A stretch of 11,402 bases of DNA, from positions 1 to 11,402 of the forward strand of contig CAMGCA010000031.1 in NCBI GenBank assembly GCA_946011705.1. The letters are read 5' to 3'. The stretch's first letter is position 1. Each line of letters opens with the position of its first letter. The stretch is from an uncultured Clostridia bacterium (GTDB taxonomy: Bacteria; Bacillota; Clostridia; Oscillospirales; Oscillospiraceae). The notes beneath the pieces are model-generated. The model did no database searches. It saw nothing but the letters and a program-made list of their open reading frames with translations, and was not told the origin of the DNA. Below, one piece after another: positions 1,519-11,402 of this stretch. Made by a program: the position numbers and the translations under genes.

Positions 1519-1557
1519 GAAAAACACCTCTGATTTTGCAGTCGGATCGTCTAAAAC

Positions 1558-1595
1558 AAAAAATGGACAACCCAGCCTCAATACTGAATTGCCCA
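1558..1595 (-). terminator. Intrinsic terminator of the minus-strand ZTP riboswitch
   Basis: Read on the minus strand, TGGGCAA (1595-1589) pairs with TTGTCCA (1570-1564), including one G-T wobble, and is followed by six T (1563-1558). The 5' arm of the stem is the last part of the aptamer's conserved CCGTCTGGGCA segment. Aptamer folding and terminator folding are therefore mutually exclusive, which is the expected arrangement of a ligand-activated switch. Confidence 0.8.
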
Positions 1596-1664
1596 GACGG
1601 TCGGCATATCTTCTCCCACACTCCACCGCGGTGTACCGCGAAATCCGTCAGTCATGCAGAAGCT
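1589..1664 (-). promoter_or_regulatory. ZTP (pfl) riboswitch aptamer upstream of the DUF1576 gene
   Basis: On the minus strand the leader contains GACTGACGGATTT (1653-1641), a P2-like hairpin CGCGG-TACA-CCGCG (1640-1627), GTGGAGT, a short linker, and then TGCCGACCGTCTGGGCA (1606-1590). These are the two conserved halves of the ZTP/pfl aptamer. A P1 helix can form between 1662-1655 and 1620-1613, with three wobble pairs. Compared with the purE copy, the linker between the halves is short and lacks a hairpin. The aptamer lies just downstream of a strong promoter and is followed by a terminator, so it should raise DUF1576 expression when ZMP/ZTP is high. The match is from memory of the family consensus. 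Confidence 0.9.
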
Positions 1665-1666
1665 TG

Positions 1667-1679
1667 CGTACATTGTACG
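1667..1679. promoter_or_regulatory. Palindrome overlapping the -10 of the DUF1576 promoter
   Basis: CGTACA-T-TGTACG is a perfect 6-1-6 inverted repeat that covers the minus-strand -10 box. Its position would suit a repressor operator. No regulator is identified, and the palindrome might be chance, since part of it is the TACAAT box itself. Confidence 0.35.
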
Positions 1680-1700
1680 AAAGTGATCCCGATTTGTCAA
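1672..1700 (-). promoter_or_regulatory. Sigma-A-type promoter for the DUF1576 transcript
   Basis: The minus strand reads TTGACA (1700-1695), a 17-bp spacer, then TACAAT (1677-1672). This is one mismatch from the consensus -10 with an ideal spacing. Initiation would fall near 1665, just before the ZTP aptamer, giving a leader of about 147 nt. A 13-bp palindrome covers the -10 element. Confidence 0.85.
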
Positions 1701-1729
1701 CTGGTACTTTACCCATAAAACAGAGTCAT

Positions 1730-1775
1730 CATTTGTCACTTTCCACGGGAGCTGCTCCCATTTGTCACTTTCCAC
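1730..1775. repeat. 17-bp direct repeat pair around a palindrome in the divergent spacer
   Basis: CATTTGTCACTTTCCAC occurs twice (1730-1746 and 1759-1775), 29 bp apart. The spacer between the copies is a 6-1-6 inverted repeat, GGGAGC-T-GCTCCC (1747-1759). A weaker relative, ATTTGTCAACT, lies at 1692-1702 and includes the -35 of the minus-strand promoter. The pair sits between the two back-to-back promoters. It could be regulator binding sites or the relic of an insertion-sequence end with repeated internal motifs. The sequence does not decide between these. Confidence 0.55.
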
Positions 1776-1819
1776 ATGGCAGCTGCGCGAAACCTGTCAG
1801 AAATTGTCTTTCTGCGGAC

Positions 1820-1848
1820 TTGACGCATTTTTTGGCCCGTGGTATAAT
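1820..1848 (+). promoter_or_regulatory. Sigma-A-type promoter of the purine operon
   Basis: TTGACG (1820-1825), a 17-bp spacer and a perfect TATAAT (1843-1848) form a near-consensus promoter. Transcription would start near 1855, about ten bases before the ZTP aptamer. Confidence 0.88.
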
Positions 1849-1865
1849 TTTACCGTAAAGAGAGA

Positions 1866-1963
1866 AACCCTTATGACTGACGGATTCGTGGAGCACCACA
1901 TGGAGTAAGGGCATATGTTTGCGTGCGAAATGATTTCACGCACTGCCGACCGTCTGGGCACAC
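1866..1963 (+). promoter_or_regulatory. ZTP (pfl) riboswitch aptamer upstream of purE
   Basis: All conserved parts of the ZTP/pfl aptamer are visible. P1 is CCCTTA/TAAGGG (1868-1873 with 1906-1911). GACTGACGGATTCG is followed by a P2 hairpin GTGG-AGCA-CCAC (1888-1899) and ATGGAGT. A variable linker contains a GTGCG/CGCAC hairpin (1923-1927 with 1939-1943), and the 3' element TGCCGACCGTCTGGGCA spans 1944-1960. The family binds ZMP and ZTP, which build up when 10-formyl-THF is limiting, and activates purine and one-carbon genes. That fits the genes downstream here. The 3' element overlaps the following terminator. Confidence 0.95.
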
Positions 1964-1998
1964 TTTTCCTGCGTTCAGGATAGGTGCGCCCATTTTTT
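1955..1998 (+). terminator. Intrinsic terminator of the purE ZTP riboswitch
   Basis: TGGGC (1955-1959) pairs with GCCCA (1988-1992), CAC (1961-1963) pairs with GTG (1984-1986), and an inner TCCTG/CAGGA hairpin (1967-1971 with 1976-1980) extends the stem. Six T follow (1993-1998). The 5' arm is shared with the aptamer's CTGGGCA, so ligand binding should block terminator formation and let RNA polymerase read into purE. Confidence 0.88.
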
Positions 1999-2021
1999 GT
2001 TGCTATTTTTGGAGGTAACCC

Positions 2022-2516
2022 ATGAAAAAAGTTGGAATTGTCATGGGCAGTGACAGTGATCTGCCTATCCTGCGCAAGGCTATGGACACCCTGGATTCTC
2101 TGGAGATTCCCTACGAGTGCCACATCTATTCCGCCCACCGCACCCCGGAGGAGGCCCGCCAGTTCGCCCTGAACGCCCGGAAAAACGGCTTCGGCGCCAT
2201 CATTGCCGCCGCCGGTATGGCTGCCCACCTGGCCGGTGCCATCGCTGCCAACACCACATTGCCCGTAATCGGTATTCCCTGTAAGGGAGCCTGCCTCGAC
2301 GGCATTGACGCACTTCTTTCCACCGTTATGATGCCCTCCGGAATCCCGGTGGCCACCGTAGCCATCAACGGAGGCGTGAATGCCGCTTTGTTATGCGCCC
2401 AGATCATCGCCGTGGAGGATGCCGCCCTTGCCGCCCGGCTGGACGCCAAGCGGGCCGCCGACACCGCCAAGGTTCTCGAAAAGGATGCCGCGCTGCAGGC
2501 GGAACTGAATAAGTAA
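2022..2516 (+). CDS. purE: N5-carboxyaminoimidazole ribonucleotide mutase (PurE)
   Basis: PurE, 164 residues, usual length for class I. It moves the carboxyl group of N5-CAIR to C4, giving CAIR. Visible motifs are GSDSD (9-13, phosphate and ribose binding), SAHRTP (37-42), the AAAGMAAHLAG loop with His69 (62-72), and the GIPVATVAI segment (107-115). The glycine loop is slightly unusual, GMAAHLAG where class I enzymes usually have GGAAHLPG. The start follows GGAGG six bases upstream and lies 23 nt past the riboswitch terminator's T run. It is the first gene of the ZTP-controlled operon. Class I PurE normally works with PurK, which is not in this window. Confidence 0.95.
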   Translation: MKKVGIVMGSDSDLPILRKAMDTLDSLEIPYECHIYSAHRTPEEARQFALNARKNGFGAIIAAAGMAAHLAGAIAANTTLPVIGIPCKGACLDGIDALLSTVMMPSGIPVATVAINGGVNAALLCAQIIAVEDAALAARLDAKRAADTAKVLEKDAALQAELNK

Positions 2517-2866: not shown

Positions 2867-4288
2867 ATGGGTGGTTTCTTCGGGGCTGTGTCCCGTAAAA
2901 GCTGCAAGTATGATGTATTCTTCGGCACGGACTATCATTCCCACTTAGGCACCAAGCGAGGCGGTCTGGCCTTCTACGACCCGGAAAAGGGCTTCCAGCG
3001 CCAGATCCACAACATCGAAAATACCCCTTTCCGCACCAAATTCGAAGGGGATCTGACAAAATTCGAGGGCAGCTATGGCATCGGCTGCATCTCCGACACC
3101 GACCCCCAGCCGCTGCTGGTCAGAAGCCACTTAGGGCTTTTCGCCATCTCCACCGTGGGCATCATCACCAACGCCGAGGAGCTGGTGGAAAAGACCTTCT
3201 CCGGCCCGGGCCATCAGTTCATGGCCATGTCCTCCGGCGCGGTGAATGCCACGGAGCTGACGGCGGCCCTCATCAACCGCTGCGACAATCTGGTGGACGG
3301 CATCCGCTACGCCCAGGCTGCCATCCAGGGCTCCTGCACCATTCTGATTCTGAAGGCCGACGGCCTAATCGCCGCCCGGGATCAGATGGGCAGACTGCCC
3401 ATCGTCATCGGCAAGAGCGAAAACGGCTACTGCGCCGCTATGGAGTCCTTCGCCTGTCAGAAGCTGGGCTATCAGCCCTGCTATAACCTTGGCCCCGGCG
3501 AGATCGTGCAGGTGACTCCCGAGGGCTACACCCAGCTGTCCGCCCCCGGCGAGAAGATGCGGATCTGCGCCTTCCTGTGGAGCTACTACGGCTACCCCAA
3601 CTCCAATTACGAGGGCGTCAACGTGGAGGTCATGCGCAACCGCAACGGTGAGATCATGGCCCGCCATGAAATGGAAAACGGCACCATGCCCGACGTTGAT
3701 TACGTTGCCGGTGTGCCGGACTCCGGTCTGCCCCACGGCATCGGCTACGCCAACTACTCCCACAAGACCTTTGCCCGGCCCTTCGTCAAGTACACCCCCA
3801 CCTGGGCAAGATCCTTCATGCCTTCCAATCAGGAGATGCGCAATCTGGTGGCGGAAATGAAGCAGATTCCCGTGCCGGAGCTGATCGAGGGCAAGAAGCT
3901 GCTGCTGGTGGACGACTCCATCGTCCGGGGCACCCAGCTGCGGGAGACGGTGGATTTCCTGTACAAGAGTGGTGCCAAGGAAGTGCATATGCGCTCCGCC
4001 TGTCCGCCCATCATGTACGGCTGCAAGTACCTGAACTTCTCCAGCAGCAAGTCCGAGATGGAGCTGCTGACCCGCAAGACCATTCAGGACCTGGAGGGTG
4101 CGGTAGGCCAGCAGCATCTGGCTGAATATGCCGACCCCAACACCGAGCGGGGCAAGACCATGCTGGATGCCATCTGCAAGGAAATGGGCTTCGACTCCCT
4201 GGGCTACCAGTCTCTGGACGGCCTGCTGGAAGCCATCGGCCTGGATAGAGATAAGGTCTGCACCTACTGCTGGACGGGTGAGGAATAA
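2867..4288 (+). CDS. purF: Amidophosphoribosyltransferase (PurF) homologue lacking the N-terminal catalytic Cys
   Basis: This 473-residue protein matches PurF over its full length. PurF makes phosphoribosylamine from PRPP and glutamine. The phosphoribosyltransferase half is well kept: LLLVDDSIVRGT (345-356) is the PRPP loop, and AGVPDSGLPHGIGYA (281-295) is also typical. C234, C386, C465 and C468 resemble the four ligands of the Fe-S cluster of Bacillus-type PurF. The glutaminase half is atypical. The protein begins MGGFFGAVS, whereas active enzymes begin with Cys after the initiator Met or a short propeptide, in a CG-FG context. The usual HRGQES-type segment is also changed to TKRGGLAFYD (29-38). 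The enzyme may use ammonia, a different subunit, or another cysteine such as C13. AGGAGG nine bases upstream supports the start. I recall similar MGGFFG proteins in other Clostridia. Confidence 0.85.
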   Translation: MGGFFGAVSRKSCKYDVFFGTDYHSHLGTKRGGLAFYDPEKGFQRQIHNIENTPFRTKFEGDLTKFEGSYGIGCISDTDPQPLLVRSHLGLFAISTVGIITNAEELVEKTFSGPGHQFMAMSSGAVNATELTAALINRCDNLVDGIRYAQAAIQGSCTILILKADGLIAARDQMGRLPIVIGKSENGYCAAMESFACQKLGYQPCYNLGPGEIVQVTPEGYTQLSAPGEKMRICAFLWSYYGYPNSNYEGVNVEVMRNRNGEIMARHEMENGTMPDVDYVAGVPDSGLPHGIGYANYSHKTFARPFVKYTPTWARSFMPSNQEMRNLVAEMKQIPVPELIEGKKLLLVDDSIVRGTQLRETVDFLYKSGAKEVHMRSACPPIMYGCKYLNFSSSKSEMELLTRKTIQDLEGAVGQQHLAEYADPNTERGKTMLDAICKEMGFDSLGYQSLDGLLEAIGLDRDKVCTYCWTGEE

Positions 4289-4456: not shown

Positions 4457-4506
4457 ATTGCCGCAGGCAATACCTCAATTTTGCATTTTGCACTTTGCAT
4501 TTTGCA
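4457..4506. repeat. Small hairpin and 7-bp tandem repeats before purM
   Basis: ATTGCC-GCA-GGCAAT (4457-4471) is a perfect short hairpin. It is followed by four tandem 7-bp units: TTTTGCA, TTTTGCA, CTTTGCA and TTTTGCA (4479-4506). This AT-rich tract ends just before the purM ribosome-binding site. Confidence 0.65.
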
Positions 4507-4528
4507 TTACAAAAAGGAGCTTATATCT

Positions 4529-5581
4529 ATGGATCACAAAAATTCCTTCTCCGCCAGCTACGCCGCTGCCGGCGTGGACATCACCGCCGGCTACAAGGCT
4601 GTGGAGCTGATGAAAAAGCACGTTGCCCGCACCCGCAATGAAGGCTGCCTGGACGACGTGGGCGGCTTCGGCGGCTGCTTCGGTCTGCCTGTCGCGGGCA
4701 TGGAGGAGCCGGTGCTGGTGTCCGGCACCGACGGCTGCGGCACCAAGGTCAAGCTGGCCATTCTCATGGACAAACACGACACCATCGGCATCGACGCCGT
4801 TGCCATGTGCGTCAACGACATTATCTGCGTGGGCGCGAAGCCCCTGTTCTTCCTGGACTACATCGCCTGCGGCAAAAACGTGCCGGAAAAGATTGCGGAA
4901 ATCGTGGGCGGCGTGGCCGAGGGCTGCGTCCAGTCCGGCGCGGCGCTGATCGGCGGCGAGACTGCCGAGCATCCGGGTCTCATGCCTGTGGACGAGTACG
5001 ATCTGGCGGGCTTTGCCGTGGGCATTGTGGACAAGAAGAAGATCATCGACAACACCCGGATGAAGGCGGGAGATGTGGTCATCGCCCTGCCCTCCACCGG
5101 CATTCATTCCAACGGCTTCTCCCTGTGCCGGAAGGTCTTCGACATTGATAACAACAACCCTGAGCTGTACGTTGCCCGGGAGGAGCTGGGGGGTAAGACC
5201 ATCGCCGAAAGCCTGCTGGTTCCCACCAAAATTTATGTAAAACCCGTTCTGGCTCTGCTGGAGCAGGTGGACGTGAAGGGCATCAGCCACATCACCGGCG
5301 GCGGCTTCTATGAGAACATTCCCCGCTCCATCCCCGACGGCCTGTGCGCGAAAATCGACAAGTCCAAGGTCAAGGTACTGCCCATCTTCGATGTAATCGC
5401 CAAGTGGGGCAACATCCCCGAGCGGGATATGTTCAACACCTACAACATGGGCGTTGGCATGAGCATCGTGGTTCCTGCCGCTGAGGAAGCCAAGGCCATC
5501 GAGATTCTGAAGGCAAACGGTGTGGATGCCTACACCATTGCTGTCATTGACGAGAATGAAGAAAAATTGATTATGGAGTGA
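4529..5581 (+). CDS. purM: Phosphoribosylformylglycinamidine cyclo-ligase (AIR synthetase, PurM)
   Basis: PurM closes the imidazole ring, turning FGAM into AIR with ATP. It has 350 residues, close to the family's usual length. Visible motifs are SYAAAGVDI (10-18), GTDGCGTK (66-73), [10 protein letters not shown] (89-98), [11 protein letters not shown] (140-150) and [11 protein letters not shown] (189-199), with [10 protein letters not shown] further on. The start at 4529 is preferred over an in-frame ATG at 4481, because AAGGAG lies nine bases upstream and the earlier start would translate the tandem-repeat tract. The stop codon overlaps the GTG start of purN, so the two are probably translationally coupled. 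Confidence 0.96.
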
Positions 5582-6174
5582 AAACCAAAATCGCGGTGCT
5601 GGTCTCCGGCGGCGGCACCAATTTGCAGGCTCTGATTGACGCACAGGGAAGCGTGTTAACCAGCGGTGAAATCGCGCTGGTGGTTGCCAACAATGCAAAC
5701 GCTTATGCGCTGGAACGGGCAAAAAAAGCCAATATTCCCACTGCTGTGGTGCTGAAAAAGCAGTGTGGCTCGCAGGAGGCCTTTGAAGAAAAGCTGAAAG
5801 AAATTCTGACGCAATACGGCATCGAGGTCATCATTCTGGCGGGCTTCATGACCATTTTAACAGAAAAGTTCACCTCCTGCTATCCCAGACGGATTCTGAA
5901 TGTCCACCCCTCCCTGATTCCTTCCTTCTGCGGCGAAGGCTTCTACGGCCTGCGGGTGCATGAGGAAGCGTTGAAATACGGCGTGAAGGTCACCGGCGCT
6001 ACGGTACATTTCGTCAACGAGATTCCAGACGGCGGCGAGATCATCGCCCAGAAGGCCGTCTACATCGAACCCGGCGACACCCCGGAGATTTTACAGCGCC
6101 GGGTCATGGAGCAGGCGGAATGGATTCTGCTCCCCCAGGCGGCAGAAATGGTCTGCGCCGGGTTGCAGGAGTAA
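5578..6174 (+). CDS. purN: Phosphoribosylglycinamide formyltransferase (PurN)
   Basis: PurN transfers the formyl group of 10-formyl-THF to GAR, giving FGAR. It has 198 residues, the usual size. The GAR-binding loop [11 protein letters not shown] (11-21) and the catalytic Asn108, His110 and Asp151 (in [12 protein letters not shown] and NEIPDGGEI) are all visible. It starts with GTG at 5578, and the GTGA overlaps the purM stop TGA. No separate strong Shine-Dalgarno is seen beyond GGAG directly at the junction, which points to translational coupling. Because it uses 10-formyl-THF, it belongs to the step group whose limitation raises ZMP/ZTP. Confidence 0.95.
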
Positions 6175-6324: not shown

Positions 6325-7038
6325 ATGAACGTCTACGAAACCAAAACCATGGCGGAAGCCGTGTCCAGCAACACCTACCCCGGTCGGGGCATTGTGCTGG
6401 GCGTGACCCCTGACGGAAAAAAGGGCGTCGCCGCCTATTTCATTATGGGCCGCAGCGTCAACTCCCGGAACCGGGTATTCGTGCAGGAGCCGGACGGCAT
6501 CCGCACCGAGGCCCACGACCCTTCCCTGATGAAGGATCCCCACCTGATCATCTACCATCCCGTCCGGGAAGCCGGGTGTGGCCTGATCGTCACCAACGGT
6601 GACCAGACCGACACCATCTGGGAATTCCTTTCTAAGGGCGAGAGCTGGGAAGCTGCCCTGCGCACCCGTCAGTTTGAGGACGACGGCCCCAACTGGACGC
6701 CCCGGATTTCCGGCTTTCAGGCACTCGACGGCAGCTATAAGCTGTCCATTCTGAAAGCCGCCGATCCCGAGGGAGCGAACTGCGCCCGGTTCTTCTACGA
6801 GTACCCCGCAACTGCCGGTGTGGGCCATTTCCTGCACACCTACGTCTGCGACGGCAATCCCGTAATCCCCATCTTCCAGGGCGAGCCGGAGCGAGTGAGC
6901 ATCCCCGCCGATATTGACGCCTTCACCACCGAGCTGTGGGAGAACCTGAACGAGGATAACAAAATCTCCCTGTTCGTCCGCTATACCGATCTGGAAACCG
7001 GCAAGCACGAGCAGAGAATCATCAACAAGCACCAGTAA
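6325..7038 (+). CDS. purO: IMP cyclohydrolase, PurO type
   Basis: This 237-residue protein resembles the archaeal-type IMP cyclohydrolase family (PurO), which closes FAICAR to IMP, the last step of the pathway. Supporting segments are GRSVNSRNRVF (42-52), TNGDQTDTIWEFL (90-102) and EDDGPNWTPRISG (118-130). It is unrelated to the N-terminal cyclohydrolase domain of bifunctional PurH, and it is followed by a stand-alone AICAR transformylase, so together they replace PurH. AGGAGG ten bases upstream supports the start. The symbol follows the archaeal name; many genomes annotate this gene only as IMP cyclohydrolase. Confidence 0.85.
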   Translation: MNVYETKTMAEAVSSNTYPGRGIVLGVTPDGKKGVAAYFIMGRSVNSRNRVFVQEPDGIRTEAHDPSLMKDPHLIIYHPVREAGCGLIVTNGDQTDTIWEFLSKGESWEAALRTRQFEDDGPNWTPRISGFQALDGSYKLSILKAADPEGANCARFFYEYPATAGVGHFLHTYVCDGNPVIPIFQGEPERVSIPADIDAFTTELWENLNEDNKISLFVRYTDLETGKHEQRIINKHQ

Positions 7039-7043
7039 AGAAA

Positions 7044-7088
7044 TGTCATTGCGAACCAGCGCGCACGCTGGTGTGGCAATCCGTTCTC
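7044..7088. repeat. Palindromic intergenic repeat, family B, left half only
   Basis: TGTCATTGCGAACCAG, the hairpin CCAGCG-CGCA-CGCTGG and TGGCAATCCGTTCTC match the left arm of copy 1 up to 7088, where similarity stops. No right arm is present. The half element ends six bp before the GGTGG ribosome-binding site of the next gene. Confidence 0.8.
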
Positions 7089-7104
7089 CTTTTGGTGGCT
7101 AATA

Positions 7105-8289
7105 TTGAACGAATTTGCTCTGAAATACGGCAGCAACCCCAACCTGAAGCGCTCCCGTATCTACATGGCGGACGGCTCTGACCTGCCCATTACCATTCTG
7201 AACGGCCGTCCCGGCTACATCAATTTCCTGGACGCGCTGAACTCCTGGCAGCTGGTGAAGGAACTGAAGGAAGCCACCGGCATGGTGGCGGTCACCTCCT
7301 TCAAGCACGTTTCTCCCACCTCCGCCGCCGTGGGCAAGCCCCTGAGCGACACACTTAAAAAAGCCTGCTTCGTGGACGATGTGCCCGAACTGGACGCCAG
7401 CCCCCTAGCCTGCGCCTACGCTCGGGCCCGTGGCACCGATCGGATGTGCTCCTTCGGCGACTGGGTGGCTCTGAGTGATGTCTGCGACACCACCACCGCG
7501 AAGCTCATCGCCCGAGAGGTCTCCGACGGTGTTATTGCTCCCGGCTACACCGACGAGGCTCTGGAAATTCTGAAAACCAAGCGGAAAGGCAGCTACAACG
7601 TAGTTGCCATCGACCCCACCTACGTTCCTGCCGAGCAGGAGACCAAGCAGGTCTTCGGCATCACCTTCCAGCAGGGCCGGAACAACTTCAAAATCAACGC
7701 TGAATTGCTTGAAAACATTGTCACCCAGAACAAAAACCTGCCGGAATCCGCCAAAATCGACCTGATTGTGGCGCTGATCACCCTGAAATATACCCAGAGC
7801 AATTCCGTCTGCTTTGCCTATGACGGACAGGCTGTGGGCGTTGGCGCGGGCCAGCAGTCCCGGATCCACTGCACCCGTCTGGCCGGCTCCAAGGCCGATA
7901 CCTTTTTCCTGCGCCAGCACCCCAAGACCCTGGCCCTGCCCTTCCGCCCCGATCTGGGCCGCCCCAACCGGGACAATGTCATTGACGGCTACATCAACGG
8001 CAACGAAGAGGACGTCTGCGCCGACGGCATCTGGCAGAACTACTTTACCGAGCAGCCCCAGCGGCTGACCGAGGAGGACAAGAAGGCTTTCCTCGCCACC
8101 TTCGACGGCGTGGCTCTCGGCTCCGACGCATTCTTCCCCTTCCCGGACAACATCAAGCGGGCCAAGACCTCCGGCGTCAAGTACATCGCCCAGCCCGGCG
8201 GCTCCATCCGGGACGATCTGGTCATTGAAGAGTGCGATAAGAATGACATGGTCATGGCCTTTACCGGCATGAGACTGTTCCACCACTAA
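7105..8289 (+). CDS. purJ: Stand-alone AICAR transformylase (C-terminal PurH-type domain)
   Basis: This 394-residue protein matches only the transformylase half of PurH. It formylates AICAR (ZMP) with 10-formyl-THF, so it consumes the riboswitch ligand. Visible features are LKYGSNPN near the N-terminus, SFKHVSP with the catalytic Lys67-His68 pair, KYTQSNSVCFAYDGQAVGVGAGQ (228-250 region), ALGSDAFFPFPDNI (337-350), YIAQPGGSIRD (360-370) and a C-terminal GMRLFHH. The start is an unusual TTG at 7105, chosen because GGTGG lies six bases upstream and the LKYGSNPN segment belongs to the family's conserved N-terminus. The first ATG (7165) would remove it. No cyclohydrolase domain is fused; the PurO-like gene upstream supplies that activity. 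Confidence 0.9.
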   Translation: MNEFALKYGSNPNLKRSRIYMADGSDLPITILNGRPGYINFLDALNSWQLVKELKEATGMVAVTSFKHVSPTSAAVGKPLSDTLKKACFVDDVPELDASPLACAYARARGTDRMCSFGDWVALSDVCDTTTAKLIAREVSDGVIAPGYTDEALEILKTKRKGSYNVVAIDPTYVPAEQETKQVFGITFQQGRNNFKINAELLENIVTQNKNLPESAKIDLIVALITLKYTQSNSVCFAYDGQAVGVGAGQQSRIHCTRLAGSKADTFFLRQHPKTLALPFRPDLGRPNRDNVIDGYINGNEEDVCADGIWQNYFTEQPQRLTEEDKKAFLATFDGVALGSDAFFPFPDNIKRAKTSGVKYIAQPGGSIRDDLVIEECDKNDMVMAFTGMRLFHH

Positions 8290-8348: not shown

Positions 8349-8699
8349 ATGTCTGGTGATAGTGTTATCAAACAGAAAAGTATGGAGTTCGCCAAACGGA
8401 TCGTACGACTGTATCAGTATTTATGCAGAGAGCGGCATGAATTTGTCATGTCGAAGCAGATTCTGCGCAGTGGGACGAGTATTGGTGCCAATGTTGCGGA
8501 GGCAATTTACGGAAGCAGCCGTAAGGATTTTGCGGCAAAGCTACAGATTGCCAGAAAGGAATCTGCAGAGACACTGTACTGGCTGGAATTGCTTCATGAA
8601 TGCTCCTATCTTCCAGATAAACTTTACCAATCACTGTATGCAGATTGTAAAGAATTGATGGCCCTGCTGACAGCAACAATCAAAACCTGTGAGGACTAA
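8349..8699 (+). CDS. Four-helix bundle protein (23S rRNA-intervening-sequence protein family)
   Basis: This small 116-residue, mostly helical protein has the family signature LRSGTSIGANVAEA (40-53) followed by SSRKDFAAKLQIARKESAETLYWLELL. It belongs to the four-helix bundle group that includes 23S rRNA IVS-encoded proteins and the Avd accessory proteins of diversity-generating retroelements. Its biochemical role is not known. GGGAG seven bases upstream supports the start. It has no evident link to purine synthesis and is visibly more AT-rich than its neighbours. It is flanked closely by inverted heptamer repeats (8296-8331 and 8700-8731). These signs suggest a cassette that entered the operon between purJ and purD. 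No reverse transcriptase or rRNA is nearby. Confidence 0.88.
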   Translation: MSGDSVIKQKSMEFAKRIVRLYQYLCRERHEFVMSKQILRSGTSIGANVAEAIYGSSRKDFAAKLQIARKESAETLYWLELLHECSYLPDKLYQSLYADCKELMALLTATIKTCED

Positions 8700-8754: not shown

Positions 8755-10020
8755 ATGAAGCTTTTAGTTGTCGGCGGCGGCGGGCGGGAGCACGCCATCA
8801 TCCGCTGCCTGAAAAAGAATCCCGAAGTCACCGAAATTTTTGCCCTGCCCGGCAACGGCGGCATTGCCGCTGACGCTACCTGTGTGGCAATTGGGGCTAC
8901 CGATCTTGACGGCATCGTGAACTTTGCCGTGGAAAACGCCATTGACTACGCCGTTGTAGCCCCCGACGATCCGCTGGTGCTGGGCTGTGTGGACGCGCTG
9001 GAAAGCAAGGGCATTCCCTGCTTCGGCCCCCGTGCCAACGCCGCCATCATCGAGGGCAGCAAGGTATTTTCCAAAAATCTGATGAAAAAGTACGGCATCC
9101 CCACCGCCGGGTATGAAGTGTTCGAGGACATGAACGCGGCGCTTTCCTATCTGGACACCGCTGCCGTGCCCACCGTGGTCAAGGCTGACGGTCTGGCCCT
9201 GGGCAAGGGCGTCATCATCGCCCAGACCCGGGAGGAAGCAAAGAAGGCCGTCCGGGACATGATGGAGGGCGGTATGTTTGGTAAGTCCGGCAGCCGGGTG
9301 GTCATTGAAGAATTCCTCACCGGCCCCGAGGTCTCCGTGCTGGCCTTCACCGACGGCAAGGTGGTGAGGCCCATGGTGTCCTCCATGGATCACAAGCGCA
9401 TCGGCGACCACGACACCGGCCTGAACACCGGCGGCATGGGCACCGTGGCTCCCAACCCCTACTACACCCCCGAAATTGCCGAAACGTGCATGAAGGAAAT
9501 TTTCCTGCCCACCATCGCCGCCATGAACGCCGAGGGCCGCACCTTCAAGGGCTGTCTGTACTTTGGCCTGATGCTGACTCCCAAAGGCCCCAAGGTCATC
9601 GAATACAACTGCCGCTTTGGCGACCCCGAGACCCAGGTGGTGCTGCCGCTGCTGGAAAGCGATTTGCTGACCATCATGCGGGCCTGCACCAATGGTACGC
9701 TGGCGGATACGGAAGTGAAGTTCTCCGACAAGAACGCCTGCTGCGTGATTCTGGCGTCCAACGGCTACCCGGTGAGCTACAAAAAGGGCTTTGAGATCAC
9801 CATGACCGAGGAAGCCGCCGCCCATACCTTTGTGGCGGGTGCGAAACTGGCTGACGGCAAGCTTCTCACCTCCGGCGGCCGGGTCACCGGCACCACCGCC
9901 ATTGCGGACACGCTGGAAGAAGCCATTCGGGAAGCCTACCGCCTGTCCGACGGCGTGAAATTCGAGGGTGCCTACCGCAGAAGCGACATCGGCCAGCGGG
10001 CGCTGCTGGCGCTGAAGTAA
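8755..10020 (+). CDS. purD: Phosphoribosylamine-glycine ligase (GAR synthetase, PurD)
   Basis: PurD joins glycine to phosphoribosylamine with ATP, giving GAR. It has 421 residues, the family's normal size, and is not fused to PurM or PurN. Motifs seen are VVGGGGREHAI (5-15), the APDDPLVLG segment (69-77), the ATP-grasp strand VVKADGLALGKGV (141-153), GPEVSV (190-195), MDHKRIGDHDTGLNTGGMG (211-229) and EYNCRFGDPETQ (283-294). In the fifth motif His219 and Leu223 replace the more common Gly and Pro. AAAGGGG about ten bases upstream serves as the ribosome-binding site. The preceding repeats separate it from purJ, but no promoter was found between them, so it is probably read from the main operon transcript. 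Confidence 0.96.
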   Translation: MKLLVVGGGGREHAIIRCLKKNPEVTEIFALPGNGGIAADATCVAIGATDLDGIVNFAVENAIDYAVVAPDDPLVLGCVDALESKGIPCFGPRANAAIIEGSKVFSKNLMKKYGIPTAGYEVFEDMNAALSYLDTAAVPTVVKADGLALGKGVIIAQTREEAKKAVRDMMEGGMFGKSGSRVVIEEFLTGPEVSVLAFTDGKVVRPMVSSMDHKRIGDHDTGLNTGGMGTVAPNPYYTPEIAETCMKEIFLPTIAAMNAEGRTFKGCLYFGLMLTPKGPKVIEYNCRFGDPETQVVLPLLESDLLTIMRACTNGTLADTEVKFSDKNACCVILASNGYPVSYKKGFEITMTEEAAAHTFVAGAKLADGKLLTSGGRVTGTTAIADTLEEAIREAYRLSDGVKFEGAYRRSDIGQRALLALK

Positions 10021-10036
10021 ATCAAGGAGGAACACC

Positions 10037-11402
10037 ATGGTTTATCGCGTTTATGTTGAAAAAAAGGAAGGCCAGACCCACGAGGCGTCCAGCCTTTTGA
10101 AGGAAATCCGGGACTTTTTGCAGATTTCCAGCCTAACAGGCCTGCGGGTGCTGAACCGCTATGACGCGGAAAATATTGACGAGGAACTGTTCCGCTACGC
10201 CGTGAACACCGTCTTCTCCGAGCCCCAGGTGGACAATGTCAGCTACGAAGTTCCCCAGGGCCAGACCGTGTTTGCCGTGGAGCCTCTGCCCGGTCAGTAC
10301 GACCAGCGGGCCGACTCCGCCGCCCAGTGCATCCAGATCATCTCTCAGGGCAACCGTCCCACAGTGCGCACCGCCAAGGTCTATGTCCTTACCGGGAATG
10401 TTACCGAGGACGAGCTGGCTGCCATTAAGAAGTATGTTATCAACGCCGTGGAGAGCCGGGAGGCTTCCCTGGATATGCCCGAGACGCTGGCGGTTCAGTA
10501 CGCGATCCCTGAGACCGTAGCCACCGTCGCCGGCTTCATCTCCATGGACGAAACCGCTCTCGGCGAGCTGCTGGATAAGCTGGGCCTTGCTATGGACCTG
10601 GACGATCTGAAATTCCTCCAGAACTATTTCCGAGACGAGGAGCATCGTGACCCCACCATCACCGAGATTCGGGTGGTGGACACCTACTGGTCCGACCACT
10701 GCCGCCACACCACCTTCTCCACCCACTTGGACAACATCGACATTGAGGACACCGCAGTGCGCAAGGCCTACGAGCAGTACCTTGCTGCCCGGGTGGAGGT
10801 TTACGGTGAGGAGAAGGCATCTAAGCGGCCCCAGACTCTGATGGACATTGCCACCATCGGCGCGAAAACTCTGAAAAAGCGGGGAATGCTTCCCGAGCTG
10901 GACGAGAGCGAGGAGATCAACGCCTGCTCCATCCACATGGACGCCGAGGTAAACGGCGAAAAGCAGGACTGGCTGCTGATGTTCAAGAACGAGACTCACA
11001 ACCATCCCACGGAAATCGAGCCCTTCGGCGGCGCGGCTACCTGCATCGGCGGCTGCATCCGGGATCCCCTGTCCGGCCGTGCCTACGTCCATCAGGCCAT
11101 GCGGGTCACCGGCGCGGGAGACCCCCGGAAGTCTTTGAAAGACACACTGCCCGGCAAGCTGCCCCAGCGCAAGCTTTGCCAGACCGCCGCGGCGGGCTAT
11201 TCCTCCTACGGCAACCAGATCGGTCTGGCTACCGGTCATGTGGCGGAGCTGTACCACGAGGGCTACATCGCCAAGCGTATGGAGTGCGGCGCGGTGGTTG
11301 CCGCCGCTCCCGCGGAAAATGTCCGCCGGGAATGCCCTGCCCCCGGTGACGTAGTCATCCTGCTGGGCGGCCGCACCGGCCGGGACGGCATCGGCGGCGC
11401 CA
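10037..11402 (+). CDS. purL: Phosphoribosylformylglycinamidine synthase, large single-chain type (PurL), 5' part
   Basis: The frame is open from ATG 10037 to the end of the window (455 codons), with AAGGAGG seven bases upstream and only 16 bp after purD. PurL converts FGAR to FGAM using glutamine and ATP. The N-terminal region (PurS-like, then linker) is followed by VVDTYWSDHCRHTTF (about residues 213-227) and FKNETHNHPTEIEPFGGAATCIGGCIRDPLSGRAYVHQAMRVTGAGDP (about 316-363), which are hallmark segments of the first synthetase domain. The fused PurS-like N-terminus indicates the long single-chain form, which normally has about 1200-1300 residues. The second synthetase half and the glutaminase domain would lie beyond the window. 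The form resembles the clostridial type of PurL. Confidence 0.95.
   Translation, partial: MVYRVYVEKKEGQTHEASSLLKEIRDFLQISSLTGLRVLNRYDAENIDEELFRYAVNTVFSEPQVDNVSYEVPQGQTVFAVEPLPGQYDQRADSAAQCIQIISQGNRPTVRTAKVYVLTGNVTEDELAAIKKYVINAVESREASLDMPETLAVQYAIPETVATVAGFISMDETALGELLDKLGLAMDLDDLKFLQNYFRDEEHRDPTITEIRVVDTYWSDHCRHTTFSTHLDNIDIEDTAVRKAYEQYLAARVEVYGEEKASKRPQTLMDIATIGAKTLKKRGMLPELDESEEINACSIHMDAEVNGEKQDWLLMFKNETHNHPTEIEPFGGAATCIGGCIRDPLSGRAYVHQAMRVTGAGDPRKSLKDTLPGKLPQRKLCQTAAAGYSSYGNQIGLATGHVAELYHEGYIAKRMECGAVVAAAPAENVRRECPAPGDVVILLGGRTGRDGIGGA

Follow-up and report, generated by a model that had tools for sequence, protein, structure and literature searches.

In an 11,402-nucleotide contig of an uncultured Oscillospiraceae bacterium (CAMGCA010000031.1, assembly GCA_946011705.1; hereafter, the window), a single spacer holds two back-to-back riboswitches of the class for 5-aminoimidazole-4-carboxamide ribonucleotide (AICAR, or ZMP) and its triphosphate (ZTP), the first heading a purine operon and the second a gene for a DUF1576 membrane protein. 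We consider it reasonably probable that DUF1576 proteins of the window type are formate channels unrelated to FocA, made from divergent ligand-ON switches when 10-formyl-tetrahydrofolate (10-formyl-THF) is short; the ON direction of the switches, formate as the cargo and import as the main direction are what we infer. With less assurance, we lean towards the broader proposition that fhs-linked DUF1576 proteins constitute new FocA-unrelated formate channels with a urea-transporter/Amt fold, a twin-histidine pore and ZTP-dependent switching, which would provide the missing formate entry in those Faecousia and kin that lack formate dehydrogenase (Fdh), pyruvate formate-lyase (PFL) and FocA. The observations obtained by computation are the riboswitches, their covariation and terminators, a linkage to fhs-fchA-folD, an alternation with FocA-family genes and a tentative resemblance in fold.

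Two divergent ZTP riboswitches in one spacer

A spacer of 503 bases (1519-2021) parts the DUF1576 gene on the minus strand from purE on the plus strand. Both aptamers in it matched the Rfam model RF01750 over its full length, the minus one with 59.0 bits (E 9.1e-08) and the plus one with 54.0 bits (E 9.7e-07), against a gathering score of 39, which bore out the preliminary description of one ZTP aptamer per strand. The strings GACTGACGGATT and TGCCGACCGTCTGGGCA, which it had named as shared, are common to both aptamers, and each strand carries the predicted set of promoter, aptamer and overlapping terminator. The promoters are candidates by consensus match, and the scanned stretch held 3 promoter-like sites as against 0.7 in shuffles. 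Folding placed a terminator stem followed by TTTTTT across the P3 end of each aptamer, with 13 base pairs on the minus strand; a simpler terminator scan returned two terminator-like sites, both on the minus strand, and missed the plus terminator seen by folding.

Both terminators start with TGGGC, the closing strand of aptamer helix P3, as their 5' arm; ligand binding and termination would therefore be mutually exclusive. Both leaders are predicted to be transcriptional switches, presumably of the ligand-ON type. For pfl RNAs, an earlier report (PMC2864571) describes such exclusion between terminator and aptamer and expects gene expression to go up with ligand. No ZTP match beyond these two was found in the genome's own assembly, which is 73% complete.

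The preliminary description had also held, on account of the differing linkers, that the two copies are no recent duplication. That argument fails, because the linker hairpin of the plus aptamer varies among sister genomes at the same locus, being present in the window, L082, L084 and L105 and absent in L081 and L083. The conclusion itself remains likely. With a model of the DUF1576-linked aptamers, the minus aptamer scored 87.9 bits and the plus aptamer 36.0 bits, although this gap is partly built in, since the 40 rows on which the model was trained include the minus aptamer. Between the two promoters lies an exact 17-base direct repeat, CATTTGTCACTTTCCAC, at 1730-1746 and 1759-1775 (period 29); a single copy region of this repeat aligns across the window and five sister loci.

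Recurrence and covariation of the DUF1576-linked riboswitch

The recurrence of the motif was examined in 80 DUF1576 loci, the best 80 of 299 matching relatives. A ZTP riboswitch was found within 700 bases upstream of DUF1576 in 41 of them, and a count with the Rfam model over 99 genomes (own genome included, and overlapping in genomes with the 80-locus set) placed one at 25 of 67 first-repeat DUF1576 matches. Forty of the DUF1576-linked aptamers were aligned with MAFFT, and Rfam together with the window supplied the structure. Double-sided changes occurred in 14 of 26 pairs, including three of the five pseudoknot pairs, nine pairs in the P1 region and two in P2; P3 varied on one side only and thus gave no covariation, and two outer pairs were mostly unpaired. 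Paired cells amounted to 86%, compared with 40-45% in slid controls. In 500 shuffles the observed covariation score, percentage paired and double changes were never attained, and the observed number of pair types was attained in 20.

By a script criterion, and counted without a shuffle control, each of the 41 DUF1576-linked leaders has a hairpin followed by a T-rich stretch, and in 40 of them this hairpin begins inside P3. At L081, L083, L084, L105, L115 and L136, a long hairpin scored best instead of the short classical form. Taken from the sequences, these results support a repeated placement of DUF1576 under a covarying ZTP riboswitch, for which binding of ZMP or ZTP is predicted. A quick tree of 81 DUF1576 proteins shows 16 changes of the ZTP label, of which starred branches force at least nine. 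The idea that the riboswitch is present in precisely those cases where DUF1576 has left the fhs operon was discarded, as the association was not significant after kinship correction.

The recurrence that the preliminary description had set as a check holds without being general. In nearer genera a ZTP riboswitch lay upstream at one of 19 DUF1576 loci of the window or L041 type (L270, genome G544). At class level, none of 40 stretches around DUF1576 genes matched our own model R1, and none of the 33 of these that were also scanned with Rfam held a ZTP match; the other seven were scanned with R1, which is the weaker of the two on distant ZTP RNAs (23.7 vs 47.2 bits at L355). The class-level proteins belong to another subfamily, 25-34% identical to the window protein. 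Likewise, the proposed coupling of DUF1576 to purE stands for the window and five of the 80 loci that share its divergent arrangement. The ZTP-DUF1576 link is nearly confined to one genus, and the purE pairing is local. This genus, our g1, appears to be Faecousia; the Faecousia locus L118 and the g1 locus L027 share aptamer sequence.

In the class-level subfamily (L191-L229), an open reading frame (ORF) of 111-139 amino acids directly followed DUF1576 in 26 of 39 loci, one such ORF being without a Pfam match, and a Pfam scan of 62 neighbours gave no common partner family among the 25 of 69 families listed. One class-level DUF1576 gene has a THF riboswitch nearby on the opposite strand (L215).

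DUF1576 genes of the window type often accompany fhs-fchA-folD

The wider partner of DUF1576 is fhs-fchA-folD, as the genes upstream of it encode Fhs, FchA and FolD, enzymes that lead from formate to methylene-THF. An fhs or folD gene lay upstream on the same strand in 49 of the 80 loci, with folD at most 200 bases away in 28. Either fhs/folD or the riboswitch was found upstream in 71 loci, and three of the remaining nine end at a contig edge. Outside the genus, 19 loci of the window or L041 type from nine other genera had been picked for a weakly scoring second repeat, as in the window protein; in 16 of them folD directly preceded DUF1576. In the own genome, fhs-fchA-folD is on a different contig and adjoins neither DUF1576 nor a formate/nitrite transporter (FNT, the FocA family) gene, and DUF1576 stands beside purE with a switch of its own.

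Several further features of these loci were recorded. An FTHFS RNA motif (RF02981), which we take to be an orphan riboswitch candidate, heads fhs-fchA-folD in the own genome (L341 8537-8646, contig C45) and at L342 (904-1036). A PF00999 Na+/H+ exchanger gene adjoins DUF1576 in 18 of 80 loci (e.g., L085, L095, L097, L106, L132 and L157), and at L092 and L106 (by tblastn also at L107 and L154) fhs is preceded by a short gene that resembles trigger factor but lacks the N-terminal portion of the profile. In the distant genome G071 (L041, 56-7350), PFL-like and radical-SAM genes stand before DUF1576 and a CLC-type channel gene after it; the PFL-like neighbour was not retained as support for a formate role, since a tRNA lies between, which leaves it suggestive only.

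FocA-family genes take the place of DUF1576 in some relatives

Of the 61 genomes in the genus, six gave no DUF1576 match. FNT matches occurred in three of the 61, namely G001 and G046, which are without DUF1576 and show the gene order fhs-fchA-folD-FNT, and G043, which has both genes in tandem. In a survey of 300 genomes of the family, in which 150 fchA loci were listed, the slot downstream of fchA held FNT in 17 cases, DUF1576 in 16, both in none and neither in 117. At two of the 17 FNT-slot loci (G669 and G561) the spacing leaves no fit for folD, and tblastn found no folD at G669. No FNT gene of any kind was found in the 16 genomes whose slot held DUF1576, as against 153 of the 300 overall (Fisher p 7e-06, uncorrected for kinship); six more slot-DUF1576 genomes checked by hand (G514, G544, G567, G645, G697 and G737) were also without an FNT match. 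Both slot states were found within five genera (g1, g279, g302, g334 and g345).

Direct tblastn for fchA-folD-FNT gave 17 loci, 11 of a FocA-length type and six of a shorter type. FNT genes are mostly located elsewhere, with seven of 40 fetched FNT loci behind folD. For four FNT proteins tested, the best models were formate/nitrite and FocA, at scores under the curated cut-offs. In G725 (L355, 7051-7142), a ZTP riboswitch of 47.2 bits by Rfam lies directly upstream of fhs-fchA-folD-FNT; it was the single, weak R1 match in 28 loci near slot FNT/fchA genes together with DUF1576 controls, and Rfam confirmed it as ZTP. No other ZTP riboswitch near FNT was seen in the loci scanned with Rfam. At five loci (L319, L322, L355, L358 and L359), a THF riboswitch was observed just past FNT in the fchA-folD-FNT cluster.

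Judged by the genes that it travels with and replaces, DUF1576 of this subfamily probably does the job of the FocA-family channel of near relatives. Of the cargoes put forward in the preliminary description, this evidence favours the one-carbon donor; formate is a likelier cargo than a purine or folate, given that a FocA-family gene replaces DUF1576, and a role as purine or folate carrier was dropped once the operon and replacement data were at hand.

We deem it very unlikely that DUF1576 merely shares regulation with, and is co-inherited within, a single clade, with no direct one-carbon role. Such a history would agree with a ZTP link nearly limited to one genus, given one of 19 loci outside it and counts that are not independent of kinship; against it stand the fhs-fchA-folD linkage in ten genera (nine and the own), the repeated changes of the ZTP label on the DUF1576 tree, and the alternation with FNT in five genera.

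A predicted channel fold with two conserved histidines

The window protein matched PF07613 well above the cut-off (237 bits vs 25) and consists of two tandem DUF1576 repeats. His190 and His405 occupy matching motifs of the two repeats, and each is conserved in 105 of 105 window-type proteins. According to a study of FocA, a pore histidine of that channel is needed for formate uptake (PMC8914244). The predicted structure (predicted local distance difference test score, pLDDT, 92.2) tentatively resembles urea and ammonium channels at a root-mean-square deviation (rmsd) of 4.6-6.8 Å among the fold matches listed; a single-sequence prediction with a pLDDT of 41.7 was set aside. The protein gave no match to the FNT family PF01226 at E up to 10, and neither the PDB, searched with the DUF1576 profile, nor Pfam families of the urea transporter, Amt or RnfD type gave a DUF1576 match at the same threshold.

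These fold matches speak for another small solute linked to one-carbon metabolism, such as urea, a folate precursor or the ammonia of glycine cleavage, and the THF riboswitches just after the slot FNT gene point to possible folate genes nearby. What alternates with DUF1576 in the same operon position is, however, a gene of the FocA family and not an Amt, urea transporter or folate carrier, and a channel fold of such a kind would be small for folates. We consider a cargo of this sort unlikely.

Formate metabolism of the genus

Thirteen DUF1576-bearing genomes of the genus are at least 95% complete; FNT was found in none of them, a PFL-like gene in one and Fdh-alpha in one, and 11 had none of the three. 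The own genome (73% complete) has Fdh-alpha and gave no FNT or PFL-like match. A 2024 survey (PMC11338639) reports gut Faecousia and CAG-170 genomes that carry CO-dehydrogenase and Wood-Ljungdahl genes with no fdh, pfl or searched formate transporter homologues, and names other formate-producing reactions for them instead.

The same 11 near-complete genomes make a one-carbon source other than formate worth considering, and fhs-fchA-folD could then run from serine, glycine or histidine to formate and ATP, with DUF1576 venting the formate. FocA is bidirectional (PMC8914244). Yet a ZTP ON switch should signal a lack of formyl-THF, just when export would be harmful, and purE and DUF1576 would answer to the same signal; export therefore seems to us slightly less probable still than a different solute.

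Proposed mechanism

In the formate channel reading that we prefer, a shortage of 10-formyl-THF would stall AICAR formylation, so that ZMP and ZTP rise. Either ligand would bind the nascent leaders, hold P3 and the pseudoknot together and block the terminator, and read-through of both leaders would let the purine operon and the DUF1576 gene be expressed. The DUF1576 channel, with its urea-transporter/Amt-like fold, would then admit formate or formic acid, which Fhs (formate-THF ligase) would convert to 10-formyl-THF, and ZMP would be consumed by AICAR formyltransferase. By analogy, the chain up to read-through would follow the riboswitch class as known; what is newly proposed is the channel step.

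A domain of unknown function thereby becomes a testable formate channel, and one that would fill a gap in print, given that PMC11338639 reports for Faecousia no Fdh or PFL that would make formate and no formate transporter of a known kind. If the proposal is true, surveys of known transporter genes only will under-count the cross-feeding of formate in the gut, and the ZTP regulon covers formate entry besides formate use.

Features of the window

As the preliminary description had it, a purine operon lies behind the plus riboswitch, with purE at the head of pur genes identified by profile matches (Table 1). Inside it, a gene of the four-helix-bundle (23S rRNA intervening sequence) family sits between AICAR formyltransferase and purD, and the IMP cyclohydrolase-like and AICAR formyltransferase functions are separate genes (6325-8289) instead of a bifunctional PurH.

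Table 1. Annotated elements and genes of the window, with the basis of each assignment
Feature	Position	Strand	Basis
Proposed formate channel, a DUF1576 membrane protein of 444 aa	184..1518	-	Pfam PF07613, 237 bits, 2 stretches
Intrinsic terminator overlapping P3, minus aptamer	1558..1595	-	Stem 1595-1564, T run 1563-1558
ZMP/ZTP aptamer of DUF1576 leader	1584..1665	-	RF01750, 59 bits; covariation over 40 relatives
Sigma-70-like promoter candidate TTGACA-17-TACAAT	1672..1700	-	Consensus match only
Sigma-70-like promoter candidate TTGACG-17-TATAAT	1820..1848	+	Consensus match only
ZMP/ZTP aptamer of purE leader, with linker hairpin	1863..1966	+	RF01750, 54 bits
Intrinsic terminator overlapping P3, plus aptamer	1955..1998	+	Stem 1955-1992, T run 1993-1998
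purE, first gene of purine operon	2022..2516	+	TIGR01162, 189.3 bits
purF-like	2867..4288	+	Best model TIGR01134, under its cut-off
purM	4481..5581	+	Profile match
purN	5578..6174	+	Profile match
IMP cyclohydrolase-like	6325..7038	+	Profile match
AICAR formyltransferase	7105..8289	+	Profile match
Four-helix-bundle gene	8349..8699	+	Profile match
purD	8755..10020	+	Profile match
Start of long ORF, probably purL, runs off contig	10037..11402	+	Named from translation

Comparison with known systems

The leaders agree with the ZMP/ZTP riboswitch (pfl motif, RF01750), as described in PMC2864571, in the full-length match, P3 and pseudoknot, the terminator overlapping the aptamer and the purine or formyl-THF genes downstream. 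They differ from it in that a DUF1576 membrane gene is controlled here and that one spacer holds two copies in back-to-back arrangement. Neither a DUF1576 target nor a back-to-back pair was found in the accessible parts of the ZTP literature searched, a search outside which the founding paper (Kim et al. 2015) and supplements fall, so that an earlier mention is possible. The words DUF1576 or PF07613 occur in no paper of the literature searched.

The fold group of urea transporters (SLC14), Amt-Rh and RnfD-NqrB may be similar in predicted shape, at the rmsd given above, without a sequence match to DUF1576. The FNT fold is aquaporin-like. FocA/FNT channels (PF01226) are unlike DUF1576 in length, with about 260 aa for the slot FNT proteins as against 444 aa, and in predicted fold, and share no detectable sequence kinship with it. 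They are like it in their operon position behind fhs-fchA-folD, a slot that in none of the 150 loci held both genes, and in standing, in one case (L355), under a ZTP riboswitch.
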